Of a stretch of 64,000 nt of DNA, positions 23,772-37,820 are shown in pieces. The position numbers were made by a program, and so were the translations under genes. The DNA is from an uncultured Isosphaeraceae bacterium (GTDB taxonomy: Bacteria > Planctomycetota > Planctomycetia > Isosphaerales > Isosphaeraceae): NCBI GenBank assembly GCA_945957605.1, contig CAMFLR010000011.1:124001-188000 (forward strand), in the 5' to 3' direction. The notes beneath the pieces are model-generated. The model worked only from the letters and a program-made list of their open reading frames with translations. It had not been told where the DNA came from and searched no databases. Position 1 is the stretch's first letter; each line of letters begins with the position of its first letter.

Positions 23772-26588
23772 ATGTCGACCGAGCCCAAGCCCTACAAAGA
23801 CACGCTGAATCTTCCTGTAACCGCCTTCGACATGAAGGCCAACCTCACCGTCCGCGAGCCCAAAATGCAGGCCCGCTGGAAGGAAGAGGATCTCTACGGC
23901 CAGATTCGCAAGGCCCGCGCAGGACGCGACCGCAAGGTGCTGCACGACGGTCCTCCGTACGCCAACGGCGAAATTCATATGGGCCACCTCTTGAACAAGG
24001 TGCTCAAGGATTTCGTCGTGCGTTCGCTCACCATGCGCGGATTCGACAGCCCGTACGTCCCCGGCTGGGACTGCCACGGCCTGCCGATCGAGCACAAGGT
24101 CGTCAAGGATCTCGGCTCGAAAGCCGCGAAGCTTACCCAAAGCGAAGTCCGCGAGCTCTGTCACACCGAAGCGATGAAGTGGGTCGGCATCCAGCGCGAC
24201 CAGTTCCGCCGCCTCGGCGTAGATGGTGATTGGGAAAACCCATACCTCACGCTCGACCCGCGCTACGAAGCCGGCATCATGGACGTTCTGGCCGACCTGG
24301 TCGAAGGCGGTTACGTCTTCCGCCAGCTCAAGCCGATCCACTGGGACATGCACGACCGCACCGCCCTCGCGGAAGCGGAACTCGAATACCAAGACGTGAC
24401 TTCGCCAACGGTCTACGTCAACTTCCCGCTCACCTCGGGAACGCCCGCCAGCCTGACCGCCAACGGCGCGAACGACTGGCACGCGATGATCTGGACGACA
24501 ACTCCCTGGACGCTTCCCGCGAACGTCGCGATCGCCGCCAGCCCGACGCTCGACTACGCCGGTATCCGCTACACAGAGCCCGAAACCGGTCGAGTCGTGC
24601 ACACCATCCTCGCCAGCGACCTCGTCGCCAAGGTGACTGGTCTCAAGGGACTGACGGACGTCGACATCGTTGCGCGGTTCAAAGGTCAAGAACTCGAAAA
24701 CGCGACATATCGTCACGTTTTCCTGCCACGCGACGGCCGCTTCGTACTCGCCGACTACGTGAGCGCTGAAGATGGCACCGGCCTCGTGCACACCGCGCCT
24801 GGACACGGTACCGAAGACTATCAAACCGGCCAGAAATACGGCCTGCCGACGCTGAGCCCCGTCGACGAATACGGCAAGTTCACATCGGAAGTCCCCGAAC
24901 GCCTTGCGGGCAAGAACGTCTTCGTGGCGAATCCCGAAGTTGTGACGATCCTCAAGGAAGTAGGAGCGCTCTTCCACGAGTTGCCGATCAGGCACAGCTA
25001 CCCGCACGGCTGGCGCAGCAAGAAGCCGGTGATCTTCCGCGCGACGTATCAGTGGTTCATCGGCGTCGATCGCAACAACCTGAGGCAAAACACGCTCGAC
25101 GCCATCATGAACGTGCGCTGGCTGCCGAGTTGGGGCAAATCGCGCATCGACGCGATGGTCGGCGGCCGTCCCGACTGGTGCATCTCCCGTCAGCGTGCCT
25201 GGGGCGTGCCGATCCCCGTCCTCTCGTGCGAAAAGACGGGCTATCACCACCTGACAGCCGAATCGGTGCGGTTCTATCGCGACCTCTTCCGCAAGGAAGG
25301 AACCAATGCCTGGTTCCGCAGATCGGTCGAAGAACTGATCCCTCCCGACCTCGACACGACCAAGTATTCCGTCGAGTCGCTCCGCAAAGGAACCGACATT
25401 CTCGATGTCTGGTTCGAATCAGGATCGAGCCATCGTTCGGTTCTGCGCGAGCCAAGCTACAACGTCGGCCCCTACCCTGCGTTCATGTATCTCGAAGGCT
25501 CCGACCAGCACCGCGGCTGGTTCCAGTCGTCGATCCTCACGGCAGTCGGTACGACAGGCAAAGCGCCGTTTGAAACCGTGCTCACGCATGGATTCATCGT
25601 CGACGAGCAGGGCCACAAGATGGCCAAGTCGGGCGGTAACGCAGTTTCGGCCGTCAAAGCGACCGAGCAATACGGCGCCGACGTGCTGCGGCTCTACGTG
25701 GCCAGTCTCGACTACGCCGACGATATCCGCATGTCCGAGCGCGGCATCAAGGAAACATCCGAGGCGTATCGCAAGATCCGCAACACGTTCCGTTATTTGC
25801 TGGGCAATCTCGAAGATTACGCCAAGTTCGATCCCAGCACGTTCGACAAGTCGAGCCTGCACGCGATCGACGTCTGGGCCTTGGCGAAGCTTAACGGTGT
25901 GATCCGCGACGTGACCGCCGCGTTCGACAAGTTCGAGTTCTACAAGGCGTATCAGCGGATCTACCAGTTCTGCTCTGTGGATTTGTCGAGCTTCTATCTC
26001 GACGTGCTCAAGGACCGCCTCTACGCCGAGTCGCCCGACGGTACCGATCGCCGCGCCGCGCAGTTTGTGCTTGCGCAATTGCATAGCGTGCTCGTACGGT
26101 TGCTCGCGCCGCTGATGCCGCACACGGCCGAAGAAATCTGGGACGTGCTGCCCGAACGTGCCGGCCGAACTGGTAGCGTTCACCTTACCGACTGGCCGAC
26201 GGAAAACGCGTCGTGGAACGGCACCGACGCGGAGTCGCTCGTGGACAAACTGCGAGAAGTCCGCGAACTCGCGTTCGTGGCGATCGAAGGAATGCGGAAG
26301 GAAAAGCAGATCGGCAGCGGTCAGGAAGCCGCTCTGACGATCACGAGCAATCCCGAACAGGCGGCCTTCCTCACACAGAATCGCGACCTGTTGACGACGC
26401 TTTGCAATGTCTCCAAGATTGAAATTGAAGCAAAGCCCGACCAGGCTGAGCCGTCAGTGAAGGCCAGCAAATCGACGAACGCCAAGTGCGAGCGTTGCTG
26501 GAATTTGCGAGACGCGGTTGGACAGGCCAGCGATCATCCCACGCTATGTGAGCGGTGTACGAAGGTGATTCGTGAGTTGAATTCCTGA
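23772..26588 (+). CDS. ileS: Isoleucine--tRNA ligase
   Basis: Class I synthetase of 938 residues, normal for the bacterial type. HIGH motif as HMGH (about residues 69-72, in PPYANGEIHMGHLLN), KMSKS motif as KMAKS near residue 616, an intact CP1 editing domain between them (WTTTPWTLPANVAIA), the anticodon-binding domain, and a C-terminal zinc finger with CERCWN and CERC pairs. Downstream the dispersed palindromic element begins within about 25 bases of the stop. Confidence 0.98.
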   Translation: MSTEPKPYKDTLNLPVTAFDMKANLTVREPKMQARWKEEDLYGQIRKARAGRDRKVLHDGPPYANGEIHMGHLLNKVLKDFVVRSLTMRGFDSPYVPGWDCHGLPIEHKVVKDLGSKAAKLTQSEVRELCHTEAMKWVGIQRDQFRRLGVDGDWENPYLTLDPRYEAGIMDVLADLVEGGYVFRQLKPIHWDMHDRTALAEAELEYQDVTSPTVYVNFPLTSGTPASLTANGANDWHAMIWTTTPWTLPANVAIAASPTLDYAGIRYTEPETGRVVHTILASDLVAKVTGLKGLTDVDIVARFKGQELENATYRHVFLPRDGRFVLADYVSAEDGTGLVHTAPGHGTEDYQTGQKYGLPTLSPVDEYGKFTSEVPERLAGKNVFVANPEVVTILKEVGALFHELPIRHSYPHGWRSKKPVIFRATYQWFIGVDRNNLRQNTLDAIMNVRWLPSWGKSRIDAMVGGRPDWCISRQRAWGVPIPVLSCEKTGYHHLTAESVRFYRDLFRKEGTNAWFRRSVEELIPPDLDTTKYSVESLRKGTDILDVWFESGSSHRSVLREPSYNVGPYPAFMYLEGSDQHRGWFQSSILTAVGTTGKAPFETVLTHGFIVDEQGHKMAKSGGNAVSAVKATEQYGADVLRLYVASLDYADDIRMSERGIKETSEAYRKIRNTFRYLLGNLEDYAKFDPSTFDKSSLHAIDVWALAKLNGVIRDVTAAFDKFEFYKAYQRIYQFCSVDLSSFYLDVLKDRLYAESPDGTDRRAAQFVLAQLHSVLVRLLAPLMPHTAEEIWDVLPERAGRTGSVHLTDWPTENASWNGTDAESLVDKLREVRELAFVAIEGMRKEKQIGSGQEAALTITSNPEQAAFLTQNRDLLTTLCNVSKIEIEAKPDQAEPSVKASKSTNAKCERCWNLRDAVGQASDHPTLCERCTKVIRELNS

Positions 26589-30504: not shown

Positions 30505-31488
30505 ATGGCCAGCCCCAAAGCCTCAACTGTCGAAATCGGCGGCATCACTCTTCACCTCAGCGTGCCCGACGCCACCGACCAAAGCTGGATCGGCCAGGAC
30601 GCAATTCTTCACCAACTGCTCGCCTGCTGGCTCGTCGTCGACCCAACCGACCGTCCGCTCTCGCCACGCATCATCGGCCAGCCTGGCATCGGCAAAACCA
30701 CGCTCGCGATGGCCGCGGCTCGCCTTCGCAAGCAAGCCCTCTACATCAACCAGTGCACAGCCGACACGCGGCCCGAAGACCTGCTCGTCACCCCCGTGCT
30801 CGCCGAGTCGGGAAAAATTGCCTACCACGCCTCGCCGCTCGTCTCGGCGATGATCACCGGCTCGGTCTGCGTGCTCGACGAAGGCAACCGCATGAACGAG
30901 AAGTCGTGGGCCAGTCTCGCCCCCCTGCTCGACCATCGCCGTTACGTCGAAAGCGTCGTCGCCGGCGTGACGATTCACGCTCATCCCGAATTCCGCTGCT
31001 GCGTGACGATGAACGAGGACGAGAGCACTTACGAAGTGCCCGACTACATCCTTTCACGTCTGCAACCGACGCTCACGCTCGGCTTTCCCGATCGCGACGA
31101 CGAACTGGCGATTCTGCGATATCACCTGCCATTCGCATCGGCCGACCTCCTCGCTCTGACCGTCGAATTCCTCCAAAAAGCCCACGAACTCAAGCTTGAC
31201 TTCTCTCCGCGCGATGGCATCAACATCCTACGTTTTGCAATCAAACGCATGTCGCAAGATTCAAAACATCCGCTTTCTCGCGACGACGCCTGGCGCGAAG
31301 CGCTCCTCTGCGTGCTCGGCGAAGAGGCGGTTGACCTAGAAAATCTCGCCCGTCGCAAGCGACGCGCAATGGGCGGCCAGCACGCGCCGATGGGCCTGGG
31401 AGATCTGTTTTTCACGCCTGGCGATCCGCTTCATCCTGATGCCGACGATTACGACGACGAGGATGAGGACGAAGACGACGAGCTATGA
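30505..31488 (+). CDS. MoxR-type AAA+ ATPase
   Basis: 327 residues. Walker [10 protein letters not shown] at 58-66, Walker [13 protein letters not shown] with Asp125/Glu126, sensor 1 in [10 protein letters not shown], and an Arg-containing ILSRLQPTL segment consistent with an arginine finger; the layout is that of AAA_5/MoxR ATPases. The C-terminus is an acidic tail of Asp/Glu (last ~15 residues). It overlaps the following 623-residue gene by ATGA (4 bases), so they are translationally coupled. MoxR ATPases act as chaperones for metal-dependent or VWA partners; here the partner is DUF5682-like rather than a visible VWA protein. Confidence 0.88.
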
Positions 31489-33356
31489 GCACCCCCGGGC
31501 CGAAGCCAACCGCCGAGGATTTCCTGCGGATCAGCCCCAAAATCCGGGCGCTGCCGATCATCCACGGCTCGGGCGATTTCGCGATCCGCGTTCGCGAAGA
31601 AATCCTCTCGCGGCCCTACGACTGTATCGCGGTCCCGCTGCCGCCGTCATTTCAAGACGATGTCGAAGACGCAATCGACCGCCTGCCGCAGATTTCCGTC
31701 GTCACGCAACTCGACATCGACGACGATTCGAATGCACCGGCGTTCAGCTACGTTCCCATCGACCCATGCCAGGGCGTCATCGCCGCGCTTCGCACAGCGC
31801 GAGGCGAGCGGATCGCCCGCGCATTCATCGATCTTGAAACTCCGAAGTTCGAGAAGTCATCGGCCGTCTATCCCGACCCTTACGCCCTGAAACGTGTGAG
31901 CCCGGCCGGATTCGCCGCGGCGGTGCTGCCCGATATCCTGCCGCCCGAATCGCAACAACATGCCGACCGTATCGTCCACATGGCCGAGCGGTTGCGGTCG
32001 CTCGAAGAACGGTACAAATCGATCCTGCTCGTCTGCTCGCTCATGGACTGGCCGTGGATTCGCGACGCCTACATGCGCAAGCTCGAAAGCCCCGAGGTCG
32101 ATCCATTCTTCACACCGATGGAGACGTTTGGCGTCGACTCGAATTCCCTCATTTTCATGCTCGGCGAATTGCCCTACCTTACCGGCCTTTATGAGCGAGG
32201 TCGGCGCGAACTGACGCCCGACGATAACCTCTCGGTCGATGGCGTCAAGGAAATGGTGCTCTACGCGCGCGACCAGCTTCGGCTCAAGCTGCCGAAAGTC
32301 GCGAAGCGAGTGACGCCGCAACTTCTCTCGGTCTATTTCCGCTATGTGCGCAATCTGGCGTTAATTGAACGCCGGCTCACGCCCGACCTCTATTCGCTCG
32401 TCGTCGCCGCGCAGCAAACCGCCGGTGATGACTTCGCGCTCGCCGTTGCCGAAGCTGCCCGAACCTACCACTACGCCAGCGACGTTTATGACGCCGACCT
32501 GCGCAAGGTGACGATGGGCATCGACCGTGCCGAGGTGCCGAACTGGGGCATGGCGAACATGATTAGCCGCCTGCCTGGTCAGTCGCTCACCTGGCGCAAT
32601 TGTGAGCTTCGCCCCAAGCCAGCCGAACGCGACAAGAAGCAGTGGAAGCAAAAGTGGGATCCCTACGGGATGTGCTCTTGGCCACCCGAGGACGACCGCA
32701 TCGAGAGCTTTCATCGCCACGTCCGCGACCAGGCCAAGGCGATCATCGGTGCCGATCTCGCGCGCTCCGAAAAGTTCACGTCGAGCGTGATGGACGGCCT
32801 CGACATGCGGGAAACCCTGCGTAACTGGCACAAGGGCGACCTTTACGTCAAGGTCTTCCCGCCCAGCCGCGGCTCGGTCGAAGTCGTCGTCTTTCTCTTC
32901 GATGTTCCGGCCGATCCCGAGATTTATCTCAACCGGGCGACCTGGTACGCCGAGCATTCCGAGGAATCGACGCTCGCCTTCTACGCGACCGATCCGATGA
33001 GCAACCTGATCGGCCCAGGCATCGCCCAAGCCGATTACGGCGGCGCAATGTTCCTGTTCCCACCGCGCCCCGTGCCCGATGTCTGGTCCGACCCACGGCT
33101 CGACTTCGCGCCTGGTCTCGAAGAGCGCTTACTCGCCGCCGCGTTCCTGCACAGCCGAGAACGCCACGTTGCCGTCGTCAGTCCGCGTCCTCCGCTCGGC
33201 TCGTGGCGCAGGCTGGCGTCGAAATACGGCAAGAAAATCGTGCCGATTCCGCTCAATCGATTCGGCAGCCAGATGATCGAACGGCTCAGGCGGTTCCACG
33301 TTCTCAACGGCAAGCACGTGCGATCGTATGCCTCAGACTTCATTCGTGATATGTGA
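31485..33356 (+). CDS. Large MoxR-coupled protein, DUF5682/TraB-like
   Basis: 623 residues, cytoplasmic, no signal peptide or membrane segment. The N-terminus ([19 protein letters not shown], then [20 protein letters not shown] and [19 protein letters not shown]) resembles DUF5682 proteins and the wider TraB/EreA-like group, in which a His-rich N-terminal strand and acidic pairs line a pocket. The middle is helical; the C-terminal third (about 440-620) is a beta-rich region with [22 protein letters not shown]5682 proteins are known neighbours of MoxR ATPases, which supports the match. The family assignment is by eye; activity unknown. No VWA MIDAS (DxSxS) was found. Confidence 0.75.
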
Positions 33357-33365
33357 GCGTTCCCA

Positions 33366-34391
33366 ATGATCTTCACTCTCGCACTCGTCATCGGTCTGCT
33401 CGACAACCCGCCCGCCGCGGCGAACACTAAACCCGCCACCCAGCCGTTCGTTTCGGCGAAGTATGGAGTCAAAATCGAGCTACCGGCGTCGTGGGAGCTG
33501 GCGGTGCGTGAGGAAGATGACCGCGTATTCGTCGCCGTGATTCCGCAAAAAGATCCAGCTCGGCCGGGTGTGCTCGCGTGCGAACTCGGTCTTGCGCCGG
33601 AAACTCTCGACGAATATCGCACCCGTCTCGATGCCAACGCCAAACGTAAAGGGCCGAACGGCGGTACGCTTGTTAAGAATGAAGTCGTGAAAACAGCCGC
33701 CGGTGAGCAACTTGAAACCTTGCGCGAATTTCGGCCGGCATTCGGCGGACTCTGGCGAGAGTTGGCGGTGCGCCGCGTTGCCAATCGGCAGCTTTATACA
33801 TTCACGCTCAACGTAGACGAAGAAACATACAAGACTACGCGGCCGATCGTCGACGATTTACTTTCGCGACTGAGTTTCACACAGCCAAATACCGGCACCG
33901 ACAAGAGCGGCCCCACACGCTGGACTCAGCGTGAGTTTCGCTTCGCGCTCGACCTGCCTGAAGGATGGTCGCCCGTGCTAGCACCGAGCGAAGTGGCCCT
34001 GTTTTACGCCAACGCTCCAGCAAAAGGAATTTGGTCCGATAACGTGCTGGTGATTGCCCACCCCCACCGCAAACTCGACCTGCACCAACTCGCCACCACG
34101 CTTCCCGACGCCCTCCGCCAGGCCGAGCCCGATTGCGAGGTGCTCGACTGCAAGATTGTCAAACAAGGCGGTGCCGATGCTCTGGAAACGATCGTGCGCA
34201 CGAAGCGCGGACCGTTTTCGATGACGATTCTCGAACGCCGGTTCAAGGGCGAGCGTTTCGACTACGAGGTGAAATACACCGTTGAGTCGAAACGATTCGA
34301 CGAGCTCTTTCCCAAAATACGGAAGAGCCTCGATAGCTTTTCGGAGTTGCCCGGCGAGGTTCCTCGCGGTGGAAAAACCAAATCGGCGTGA
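33366..34391 (+). CDS. Exported two-repeat protein (PsbP/DcrB-like)
   Basis: A 341-residue protein 9 bases after the previous gene. The N-terminus (MIFTLALVIGLL) is a short signal-like segment. Two homologous halves begin KYGVKIELPASWELAV (about residue 35) and EFRFALDLPEGWSPVL (about residue 195), each followed by an extended beta pattern ending with a helical segment; this is the pattern of PsbP/DcrB (DUF1795)-like folds. Function unknown. Position suggests co-transcription with the MoxR pair, but the envelope location differs from their predicted cytoplasmic site. Confidence 0.72.
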   Translation: MIFTLALVIGLLDNPPAAANTKPATQPFVSAKYGVKIELPASWELAVREEDDRVFVAVIPQKDPARPGVLACELGLAPETLDEYRTRLDANAKRKGPNGGTLVKNEVVKTAAGEQLETLREFRPAFGGLWRELAVRRVANRQLYTFTLNVDEETYKTTRPIVDDLLSRLSFTQPNTGTDKSGPTRWTQREFRFALDLPEGWSPVLAPSEVALFYANAPAKGIWSDNVLVIAHPHRKLDLHQLATTLPDALRQAEPDCEVLDCKIVKQGGADALETIVRTKRGPFSMTILERRFKGERFDYEVKYTVESKRFDELFPKIRKSLDSFSELPGEVPRGGKTKSA

Positions 34392-34479
34392 CATTTTGTG
34401 CGCCTATTGGTAATCTGCATGAACGCTTGTCGATCGAATTCCGCCCGCTCGGATGCACCACCAAGACGAACGGATGCAC

Positions 34480-37047
34480 ATGTCGTCTGTGCCCACACTC
34501 ACAGGGCCCGTGCGCGACTGGTTTCAGTCGGCCTACCCCGATGGCCCAACTGAAGCTCAGCGGCTGGCGTGGCCAAACATCGCGGCCGATCGCCACACGC
34601 TGCTCGTTTCGCCGACGGGAACCGGCAAAACACTCGCCGCGTTCCTGAGCATCATTGATCGCCTGTATGATCAGCATTTAGCAAACAAGCTTACGCCGAC
34701 ACTCCGATGCGTTTATGTCTCACCGTTGCGCAGTCTTGGTTACGACATTGAGCGTAATCTCAACGCGCCGCTCGACGCGATTCGTGCTCAGCTTGAACTC
34801 GAATCAAGCCCGATTCGCATAGGGGTGCGCACCGGCGATACCTCGGCATCGCTCCGGCGCAAACTCCGCGACAATCCGCCACACATCCTCATCACCACGC
34901 CCGAAAGCCTCTCGCTGCTCTTGAGCCAACCGGTCTGGCGCTCGCATTGGAATTCGTTGACTCACTTGATTGTCGATGAAATCCACGCCCTCGTTCCGAC
35001 CAAGCGAGGCGCCGATCTCAGCGTCTCGCTCGAACGCCTTGCCAGCCTTTCAGCAAATGATCCAACGCGCATCGGACTCTCAGCGACCTGCAATCCCACG
35101 GCGCCCGTCGCTGAGTATCTCGTCGGTCCAACCAGAAAATGCGACGTGCTGGAAGCGAGCCGCACTGGTTCGCAGGGACCGTCGATCGACGTGCAGTCAC
35201 TCATCGCTCATGATGAAGAACCCTACCGCGGATTAACATACCGGCGATTGCTTACGCGACTAAAAACGGCAATCGGCCAGAATCGGACGACGGTCGTCTT
35301 CGCGAACACTCGTGCGTTCACCGAAAAGATCACGCACGACCTGCGCGCCGAAAACCCATTAAATCCCGAGTCAATTGCCGCGCACCACTCATCGCTTGAT
35401 GCCACGCGGCGGCGAACCGTCGAAGCCGCTCTGAAGGAAGGCGCGATTCGCGCCGTTGTCACCAGCACAAGTCTGGAGCTTGGTGTTGATATTGGCCAGG
35501 CCGACCTTTCCGTGCTCGTCGGCCTTCCCGGAAGCGTGGCGCGTTGCCTTCAACGCGTCGGGCGAGCCGGTCATCAACCGGGACAATCGCCGCGCGGGCT
35601 TTTGCTCGCTGCAAGTCCGGCTGAGCTTGTCGGTGCGATTGTCACTGCGCACGCGGCACAGGCAGGTGCCGTCGAACCATTGCGTCCCATTTGTAACCCG
35701 CTCGACGTGCTCGCCCAGCAATTGATTGGCATGGCATGCGCCGGAGAGTGTTCAAGCGACGATGTTTTCGCGCTCTTGCGCAAATCGGGATCGATGGCAA
35801 CTTTGAGTCGCGCCGATTTCGATTCCGTGCTCGATTTCCTCGCCGGCGATCTCTCCGCACCATCCGGAGCGCACGAGCCGGAACCGGGCGCGGCACCGCA
35901 GTGGACCTCTCCGCGCATCTGGAAAATCAAGGGACGCTGGGGTGTCCGCTCGACTCGCGTCATCCGATGGTTCCGCGCGAACGTCGGCACAATTACGTCG
36001 GAAGAATCATGCCGGGTGATTGCGGGCGGACGATGTGTTGGCATGCTCGAGTCGGCATACGCCGATCGTTTAATGCCGGGCGATCGCTTCGTCCTCGACG
36101 GCCATTCGTTCGAATTTCGCCGGCTCGATGGGCCCATCGTTCATGCCAATGCTTCTGGCGGCGAGCCCGCCCTGCCGCGGTGGTCGAGCGATCGTCAGGG
36201 GCTTTCGGCCGAGCTTGCACGAGACGTCGCACATTTTCGTGTCGCCGCTGCAGAACAGCTTTCTCAAGGATCTGCAGCTCTTACATACTGGCTTCGTCAT
36301 ACATTTGGAATCGATTCTGTAGCATCCAACGTTGTTCGCGCTCTCATCGAAGCGCAGGAACGCGAAAGCGAGATTCCCACCCACGATGTGCTGCTAGTGG
36401 AGGAGTCGCCATCGGGCGAATTCGGCCGGTTGATATATGCGTTTCACGCGCCTCTCGGTCGTGCAGCGATCGAAGCTTTGGCACGTGCAACATCTGCGCG
36501 GCTCGGCCGCAAGTTCGGACGTGATATCGAAGTCGCCATTGCCGACCTTGGTTGGGCACTCACGATGCCCGAAGGCGTCCGGCTTTCGCGCGAAGATCTC
36601 GCGGTTGCTTGCGAACCCAGTTCGCTAATGGGAGACGTGCTCGACGGCATCGATCGCGGCGAGTTGCCCGCGCGTCGCTTCCGCCACATTGCCGCGACTG
36701 CCCTGATGGTTCTGCGCAATCCCGAGGGTGGCCGAAAACGCGTGGGCGGTATGCACTGGGTAAGCCGTCGCTTGTATCCGCTTGTGAAGGCCGCGTGCCC
36801 CAGCCATCCACTGCTCCGCGAAACCGAGCGTGAAGTGCTCGAAGATTGCCTCGACACTCGCTCCGCTCATGCCTGGCTCGAGACCGCGCCCGAGATTCGA
36901 TTGCGATCGCTGCATGAACCCTCGCCGTTCGCGGTCGCGTGGATCTTGGCGAGCGAGGCCGAGCCAATTCGTTTTGAATCGGCCGATAGCGCTCTCGAAC
37001 GACTTCATGCCCGGCTCGTCGGCGCAGTCGAACGGCGGCCCGCATGA
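34480..37047 (+). CDS. Lhr-like DEAD/DEAH helicase (ligase-associated type)
   Basis: About 855 residues. Helicase motifs: Q-motif region PTEAQRLAWPNIA, Walker A SPTGTGKT, motif Ia YVSPLRSLGYDIERNL, DEIH box VDEIHAL, SAT (GLSATCNP), and motifs IV-VI ending VGLPGSVARCLQRVGRAGH. A winged-helix and beta-barrel domain and a C-terminal Lhr domain follow. The length and C-terminal pattern fit the Lhr-core/'ligase-associated' class. The start is set at the ATG of MSSVPTLTGPVRDWF (34480); ATGs at 34453 and 34474 are possible. It overlaps the PdeM-like gene by 4 bases, a pairing typical of the ligase-associated DNA-repair locus; no ligase or exonuclease lies nearby. Confidence 0.9.
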   Translation: MSSVPTLTGPVRDWFQSAYPDGPTEAQRLAWPNIAADRHTLLVSPTGTGKTLAAFLSIIDRLYDQHLANKLTPTLRCVYVSPLRSLGYDIERNLNAPLDAIRAQLELESSPIRIGVRTGDTSASLRRKLRDNPPHILITTPESLSLLLSQPVWRSHWNSLTHLIVDEIHALVPTKRGADLSVSLERLASLSANDPTRIGLSATCNPTAPVAEYLVGPTRKCDVLEASRTGSQGPSIDVQSLIAHDEEPYRGLTYRRLLTRLKTAIGQNRTTVVFANTRAFTEKITHDLRAENPLNPESIAAHHSSLDATRRRTVEAALKEGAIRAVVTSTSLELGVDIGQADLSVLVGLPGSVARCLQRVGRAGHQPGQSPRGLLLAASPAELVGAIVTAHAAQAGAVEPLRPICNPLDVLAQQLIGMACAGECSSDDVFALLRKSGSMATLSRADFDSVLDFLAGDLSAPSGAHEPEPGAAPQWTSPRIWKIKGRWGVRSTRVIRWFRANVGTITSEESCRVIAGGRCVGMLESAYADRLMPGDRFVLDGHSFEFRRLDGPIVHANASGGEPALPRWSSDRQGLSAELARDVAHFRVAAAEQLSQGSAALTYWLRHTFGIDSVASNVVRALIEAQERESEIPTHDVLLVEESPSGEFGRLIYAFHAPLGRAAIEALARATSARLGRKFGRDIEVAIADLGWALTMPEGVRLSREDLAVACEPSSLMGDVLDGIDRGELPARRFRHIAATALMVLRNPEGGRKRVGGMHWVSRRLYPLVKAACPSHPLLRETEREVLEDCLDTRSAHAWLETAPEIRLRSLHEPSPFAVAWILASEAEPIRFESADSALERLHARLVGAVERRPA

Positions 37048-37820
37048 GCGATCAACAATCTCTTGCACCAGGCCCTGACGGCTGGCTGCTCGCCCCTGCT
37101 GGAGCCATCATTCATCGCGAAGCCCGCGTCGCCGTGATTGCTGACGTTCATCTCGGTTACGAATGGTCGCGCGGGCATAGCGGCGACATAGTTCCTGCGC
37201 ATTCGCTGCGAGAAACTTTGGCTGGGCTCGAGGGCCTCACTTCACTCGGCTGCTTCCACCAACTTATGGTCGCGGGCGATCTCGTCGAATCGCCACTACC
37301 TTGCCGCAAAACCGAGCACGATGTTGCCGCGTTTGAACAATGGCTCGATTCTCGCGGGATTCGCCTCCGCAGGGTGCTGGGCAACCACGACGGCACGCGT
37401 GGCGAAAAGGCGATCGTCGTTGCCGGGTGGACCATCGTCCACGGCCACGTTAAACATCGTGCATCGAAATTAATTACAGGGCACGACCACCCGGTTTTAT
37501 CGATCGCAGGCGTACGGTCGCGCTGCATTCTCGCAGGACCAAGCCGGATCATTCTGCCAGCATTCACGTCCAACGCGGCAGGTCGAAACGTTGCCGAGGC
37601 GACGTTGCCGAAGCACTGGCGCAATCACGACCTCGAATGCTGGGCCGCGACGGGCAATCGCATGCTCAATTTTGGACGAGTCGATTCGCTGCACGAGCGA
37701 CTTGCCGGGGCGGCTATTGCTGGCGCACCGGCAGTTCCAGGACGATCGTCGAACTCTGGCCCGACTCGATCTCGAATCGTGCTGCGCCGCCAAGGCGCTC
37801 GCAAATCGTCGCAGCCATAG
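37044..37820 (+). CDS. pdeM: PdeM-like metallophosphoesterase (ligase-associated DNA repair)
   Basis: 258 residues of the COG1407 calcineurin-like family. Metal ligands in VIADVHLGYEW, MVAGDLVES, RVLGNHDG, IVHGHVKH and TGHDHP. Starts within the helicase stop (ATGA overlap). COG1407 proteins (PdeM) accompany Lhr-type helicases in a bacterial DNA-damage module, so the pair supports both annotations. The last ~35 residues (from about 223) are Ser/Arg-rich and lie antisense to the end of the convergent histidine-kinase gene; the family is usually shorter, so this tail may be an extension created by loss of an earlier stop. Confidence 0.85.
   Translation: MSDQQSLAPGPDGWLLAPAGAIIHREARVAVIADVHLGYEWSRGHSGDIVPAHSLRETLAGLEGLTSLGCFHQLMVAGDLVESPLPCRKTEHDVAAFEQWLDSRGIRLRRVLGNHDGTRGEKAIVVAGWTIVHGHVKHRASKLITGHDHPVLSIAGVRSRCILAGPSRIILPAFTSNAAGRNVAEATLPKHWRNHDLECWAATGNRMLNFGRVDSLHERLAGAAIAGAPAVPGRSSNSGPTRSRIVLRRQGARKSSQP

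Follow-up and report, generated by a model that had tools for sequence, protein, structure and literature searches.

A MoxR-clade ATPase and a putative TraB-fold protein form a nearly obligate pair in Planctomycetota

MoxR ATPases are commonly understood through their VWA partner. With the help of this adaptor, they remodel their clients (PMC7159879). In the window (the whole stretch of 64,000 nucleotides analysed here, from an uncultured Isosphaeraceae bacterium), a MoxR-type ATPase gene is joined to the gene of a 623-residue protein, which we named g623, and no YehP-type VWA gene was found with them. This locus raises the question of whether the pair is the remainder of a larger, already described system or a machine in its own right.

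Both open reading frames lie on the forward strand, the ATPase (327 amino acids) at 30505-31488 and g623 at 31485-33356. As an earlier note on this DNA had described, they overlap by four bases: the sequence ATGA at 31485-31488 is common to the stop of the first frame and the start of the second, which suggests translational coupling. When gene starts were picked by script in 42 wider g623 loci (L002, L003 and L060-L099), a gap of -4 between the two genes was also computed in seven of them. The surrounding genes are unrelated to the pair according to Pfam, with a DUF502 gene on the minus strand upstream and a putative exported protein, then an Lhr-type helicase, downstream. The exported protein (33366-34391, forward strand) starts 9 bases past the end of g623, carries a signal-peptide-like stretch at its N-terminal start and shows a sub-threshold Pfam similarity to PsbP. 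It had been suggested as an added component; since it follows g623 only in the window's own family (f1), it is better regarded as an accessory neighbour outside the core pair. The Lhr-type helicase (34453-37820) has a 4-base overlap with a metallophosphoesterase-like gene. In three related loci, a Uma2-like sequence was observed just upstream of g623 (L002, 6963-7277; L020, 445-759; L023, 3433-3753), and it sits between MoxR and g623 where both genes are in view (L002 and L023).

The ATPase matched the Pfam profiles AAA_5 (E value 1.7e-19, 70.7 bits for a cut-off of 22) and AAA_3 (1.2e-7, 32.1 bits for a cut-off of 27). Its Walker A motif GQPGIGKT (residues 58-65, 30676-30699, forward strand) retains G58, P60, G61, G63, K64 and T65 in at least 95% of 55 orthologues, as does the Walker B core L124-D125-E126 (30874-30882, forward strand). 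By profile and Walker motifs, the protein can be assigned to the MoxR-clade AAA+ ATPases, in line with the identity first proposed for it. Identity reaches 78-89% in near relatives, and the best relatives by PDB sequence are midasin, CbbQ and NorQ.

The window's g623, on the other hand, found no match in Pfam, NCBIfam, PADLOC or PHROGs, and a single chain among PDB sequences was retrieved at chance level. Homologues are nevertheless present, nearly full length, in most same-family relatives (64-78% identity) and further out in the phylum (33-61% identity), so that the frame is, as judged from its conservation, a real gene and the founder of a conserved family. It was detected in 40 of 59 relatives and in 59 of 392 genomes sampled from the phylum as a whole, with one copy per genome as far as the matches show.

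In the 392-genome sample, an orthologous MoxR was present in all 59 genomes with g623 and in 2 of the 333 without it (phi 0.98, Fisher p 2.5e-68, the units being genomes counted, which are not independent). Orthologues were defined by a score of at least 228 bits, while other MoxRs reached at most about 50 in a search of 26 genomes. The two genomes with MoxR only are G058 (99% complete) and G064 (66%), and a profile search did not find g623 in them either; MoxR may thus serve another role there, or g623 may have been lost in G058. The genes are also close together: the orthologous MoxR lies upstream, on the same strand and within 3 kb, in 29 of the 42 wider loci, and within about 60 bases or overlapping in 20 of these. 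In the remaining 13 loci, it is found elsewhere in the same genome, and no neighbours common to MoxR and g623 were seen in these unlinked cases. As the unlinked genes still occur in the same genome, the pairing does not hinge on a single operon. Across 47 pairs, the evolutionary distances of MoxR and g623 were correlated at r 0.96, and at 0.95 in 12 pairs that are unlinked; part of this correlation reflects shared species history. A strong association between MoxR and its partner is thereby supported, and the pair is nearly obligate and single-copy.

IleRS (23772-26588 of the window) proved unusable as a control for vertical inheritance, since the IleRS of most genomes from other families is of a distant type. 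Its identity is 62-72% in most same-family relatives tested; other members of the phylum gave the distant type (~32%) or no match at 1e-100, with one exception at 47%, a pattern that suggests two types or a replacement. Neither gene of the pair is named in the main text of the essentiality literature on Planctopirus limnophila.

The pair was also found outside the phylum. Plasmid pS13 of Neochlamydia sp. S13 (Chlamydiota) carries a g623 copy with its own adjacent ATPase (L218, 7102-9815). Compared with the window, identity is 53% for the ATPase and 30% for g623 over 96% of its length. This location suggests transfer or plasmid capture. On pS13, the pair lies near recombinase and group II intron genes.

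To which proteins, then, is g623 related? A profile built from 81 members was aligned by hhalign with DUF5682 over residues 9-313 (probability 97, E value 1.2e-10), and the N-terminal domain alone gave 1.5e-11, while ten column-shuffled profiles and one reversed profile gave 0.04 or worse. At the sequence level, the N-terminal domain of g623 is thus remotely homologous to the DUF5682 N-terminus. In the AlphaFold model (mean pLDDT 90.8), residues 1-201 adopt a TraB/ChaN/TIKI fold, and we place the domain at residues 10-201 (31512-32087, forward strand). When the model was compared with BFVD, one viral TraB family protein was retrieved (E value 3.8e-4, probability 1.00). Other structural matches were ChaN (Z 7.5), HopBA1 (Z 7.1) and a Tetrahymena complex IV chain (Z 9.7), most single Z scores being below 8. 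As Foldseek against the PDB alone gave nothing below 0.001, the case for this fold is made by the agreement of profile, fold and motif, which together indicate that the modelled N-terminal domain has the TIKI/TraB/ChaN core. The TraB profile PF01963 matched nothing above its cut-off in 40 relatives, which therefore yielded no TraB profile. Kinship with the erythromycin-esterase family was not supported (profile E value 0.5).

Enzymes of the TIKI superfamily have a 2His/2Glu centre, and a member without the motif, PMT, is known (PMC6254334). At the corresponding columns, DUF5682 shows RHHxP, EGP and GAxH. In g623, His27, Glu51 and the GxxHis188 motif are all kept in 13 of the 14 deep-branching members with data at those columns, and in the Neochlamydia copy, whose long branch falls on the keeping side of the g623 tree. 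In the window's clade, a few members vary, and the pattern is as follows: the first motif histidine H27 (PxxH here, 31563-31565), retained in most members, is kept; proline 51 (31635-31637) stands at the position of the catalytic-type glutamate; and S185-L-M-D188 (32037-32048) replaces the second GxxH motif, all on the forward strand. Losing and keeping members are split by one branch with a support of 100/100. The glutamate and the second histidine were therefore lost once, on the branch leading to the window's clade, and catalysis was presumably lost with them. Asp188 is conserved in 59 of the 81 sequences, so that the pocket may have acquired a new role; likewise, the retention of H27, D116 and E118 in the window's copy means that some chemistry could remain.

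The rest of g623 is less easily placed. A helical segment (residues 248-333, 32226-32483, forward strand) resembles AAA+ lid helices over residues 250-333 (Mg-chelatase 6l8d, Z 6.2; dynein 7mi6, Z 5.3), and this likeness in the model is only a lead. The helical middle of a DUF5682 protein (L100, residues about 280-380) likewise aligned, if weakly, with the C-terminal lid of its own YehL-type MoxR partner, at a profile probability of 68 (E value 4.9e-5). The C-terminal domain (residues 336-623, 32490-33353, forward strand) concentrates most of the invariant residues of g623, many of them acidic, His, Arg and Trp. When its profile was run through the 392 genomes, it was present only in g623 proteins, and searches against Pfam, PDB sequences and PDB folds gave chance or weak matches only. 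Modelled alone (pLDDT 85), it had no firm fold match. RNase-H-like folds recurred (Argonaute PIWI, integrase, uS11, CoaA); with a best Z of 4.3 and an E value of 0.06, the RNase-H likeness is no more than a lead. The fold matches listed include no VWA and the strands seem to be ordered differently, although the domain might conceal one.

The earlier note had seen in g623 a resemblance to DUF5682 and TraB proteins and in the pair a minimal form of the DUF5682 module. The resemblance holds for the N-terminal third. Membership does not: the window's protein has no match to DUF5682 (PF18934, cut-off 26 bits) in the Pfam search that the note had proposed, and even some deep-branching members and the Neochlamydia copy score 12-15 bits, with a maximum of 15.0. 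A system of the YehLMPQ type that had lost its VWA and SWIM proteins could explain this remote N-terminal homology, as well as the gene order, MoxR then partner, which is like that of YehL-YehM. However, the C-terminal half of g623 is unmatched in DUF5682 by profile comparison (hhalign probability 0.4%, E value 0.14), and the ATPases belong to separate clades. In the MoxR tree, whose root is not known and whose stems are long, the g623 MoxRs form one clade (99/94), the DUF5682 (YehL-type) MoxRs another (100/100) and other MoxRs stand apart (99/98). The g623-MoxR profile scored 138 against other MoxR and 53 against YehL-type. Moreover, the window's own genome contains two true DUF5682 proteins elsewhere, in full systems (L143, G000:C4:145000-162000; L144, G000:C1:1228000-1247000), one of them MoxR-DUF5682-VWA and the other MoxR-DUF5682-VWA-SWIM like E. 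coli yehLMPQ. In two relatives, DUF5682 and VWA are apparently fused, in frames of 1212 and 1613 amino acids (L152, 6251-9886, minus strand; L153, 7072-11913, plus strand). As noticed before, no VWA or SWIM companion of the pair was seen: profiles of the YehP-type VWA and the YehQ-type SWIM found none in the 42 wider loci, the window, the Neochlamydia locus or the loci of the solo MoxRs, and matched 19 and 5, respectively, of 20 DUF5682 loci. For VWA, this absence concerns the YehP type near the genes. Reduction of a DUF5682 system is accordingly very unlikely; given the separate VWA-bearing systems in the same genome and the MoxR clade of its own, the g623 pair is, by its sequences, a separate sister module.

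If the pair served in conflict or phage defence, MoxR would gate a TraB-type effector; this proposal must be weighed against the distribution of the two genes. MoxR-centred ternary conflict systems with vWA are described in planctomycetes (PMC7159879), one copy of the pair resides on the Neochlamydia plasmid, and deep members keep a TIKI-type centre, all of which would suit such a role. In the window's clade, though, the effector centre is degenerate, and the VWA partner, a defining part of the described ternary systems, was not found near the genes. The pair was unmatched by the PADLOC anti-phage profiles, the ATPase giving only a chance-level P-loop match; no match was found in phages or viral contigs, and no recurrent variable neighbours were seen around g623 loci. 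These results, together with the single copies and lineage-wide presence, make a conflict role less likely; we found no evidence for the candidate conflict system of the earlier note and consider it improbable.

We favour instead, with a probability of roughly 0.5, the reading that the pair is a dedicated two-component MoxR remodelling machine which works independently of VWA, and whose partner has turned into a pseudo-enzyme adaptor in the window's clade. A hexameric ring is expected in the MoxR family, and the ATPase would form one. As g623 is the only constant partner, it is most likely this single obligate protein that fills the place of the VWA co-chaperone. Its TraB-fold and helical lid-like parts would dock on the ATPase ring, and its private, strongly conserved C-terminal domain would probably bind the client to be remodelled. 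The TraB domain may have remained a hydrolase in lineages that branched off early. As the catalytic positions were lost once in the window's clade, g623 is there most likely an adaptor or a substrate-binding pseudo-enzyme, serving a housekeeping process. More tentatively, one may propose a VWA-free class of MoxR systems, in which a TIKI/TraB-fold partner brings its own AAA-lid-like docking segment, a presumably active hydrolase became a pseudo-enzyme adaptor within one phylum, and the working end shifted to the otherwise unknown C-terminal domain, which may be RNase-H-like.

The partner could also still be an enzyme, by way of its C-terminal domain or of a rebuilt TraB pocket with SxxD for GxxH. 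CbbQ and NorQ load a cofactor into their targets or activate them, and MoxR might treat g623 likewise. The invariant residues of the C-terminal domain, among them many acidic, His, Arg and Trp, the retained H27, D116 and E118 and the CbbQ and NorQ structures among the ATPase matches speak for this possibility; against it, the searches brought up neither a solved structure nor a protein family related to the C-terminal domain, and we regard it as rather doubtful.

With a partner whose old enzyme fold has a decayed active centre in this branch and whose C-terminal domain was met in no other protein, the pair is a real but uncharacterised machine, not a trimmed version of something known. That whole planctomycete lineages and a chlamydial relative carry a near-obligate, VWA-free pair points to a core process of these bacteria that has so far gone unrecognised. 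Since the TraB centre was lost a single time and both states exist, nature provides a before-and-after comparison of a MoxR partner passing from enzyme to adaptor, and the private C-terminal domain clearly invites structure determination.

Four known systems are instructive in comparison. In the YehL-YehM-YehP-YehQ systems, too, a MoxR gene precedes one whose product has a homologous N-terminal domain of the TraB fold; the g623 pair differs in its MoxR clade, its unmatched C-terminal half and the absence of VWA and SWIM nearby, and the window's g623 differs from DUF5682 in the loss of Glu and of the GxxH histidine and in missing the Pfam cut-off. The MoxR-vWA ternary systems (VMAP, iSTAND, FtsH, beta-propeller) also combine MoxR with a large dedicated partner and occur in planctomycetes, whereas the g623 pair was found without vWA and without variable effectors and is distributed like the core genome. 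Besides midasin, the closest named sequence matches of the window's ATPase are of the CbbQ/NorQ/GvpN type, but its 33.6 bits fall far short of the 266.8 required for the GvpN equivalog, and no CbbO/NorD-like VWA partner was found near it. With the TIKI/TraB/ChaN/Ere superfamily, finally, g623 has the fold of its N-terminal domain in common, and the His, Glu and second-His positions persist in its deep members, whereas the window's clade replaces the Glu and second His, and g623 adds its lid-like and private C-terminal domains.
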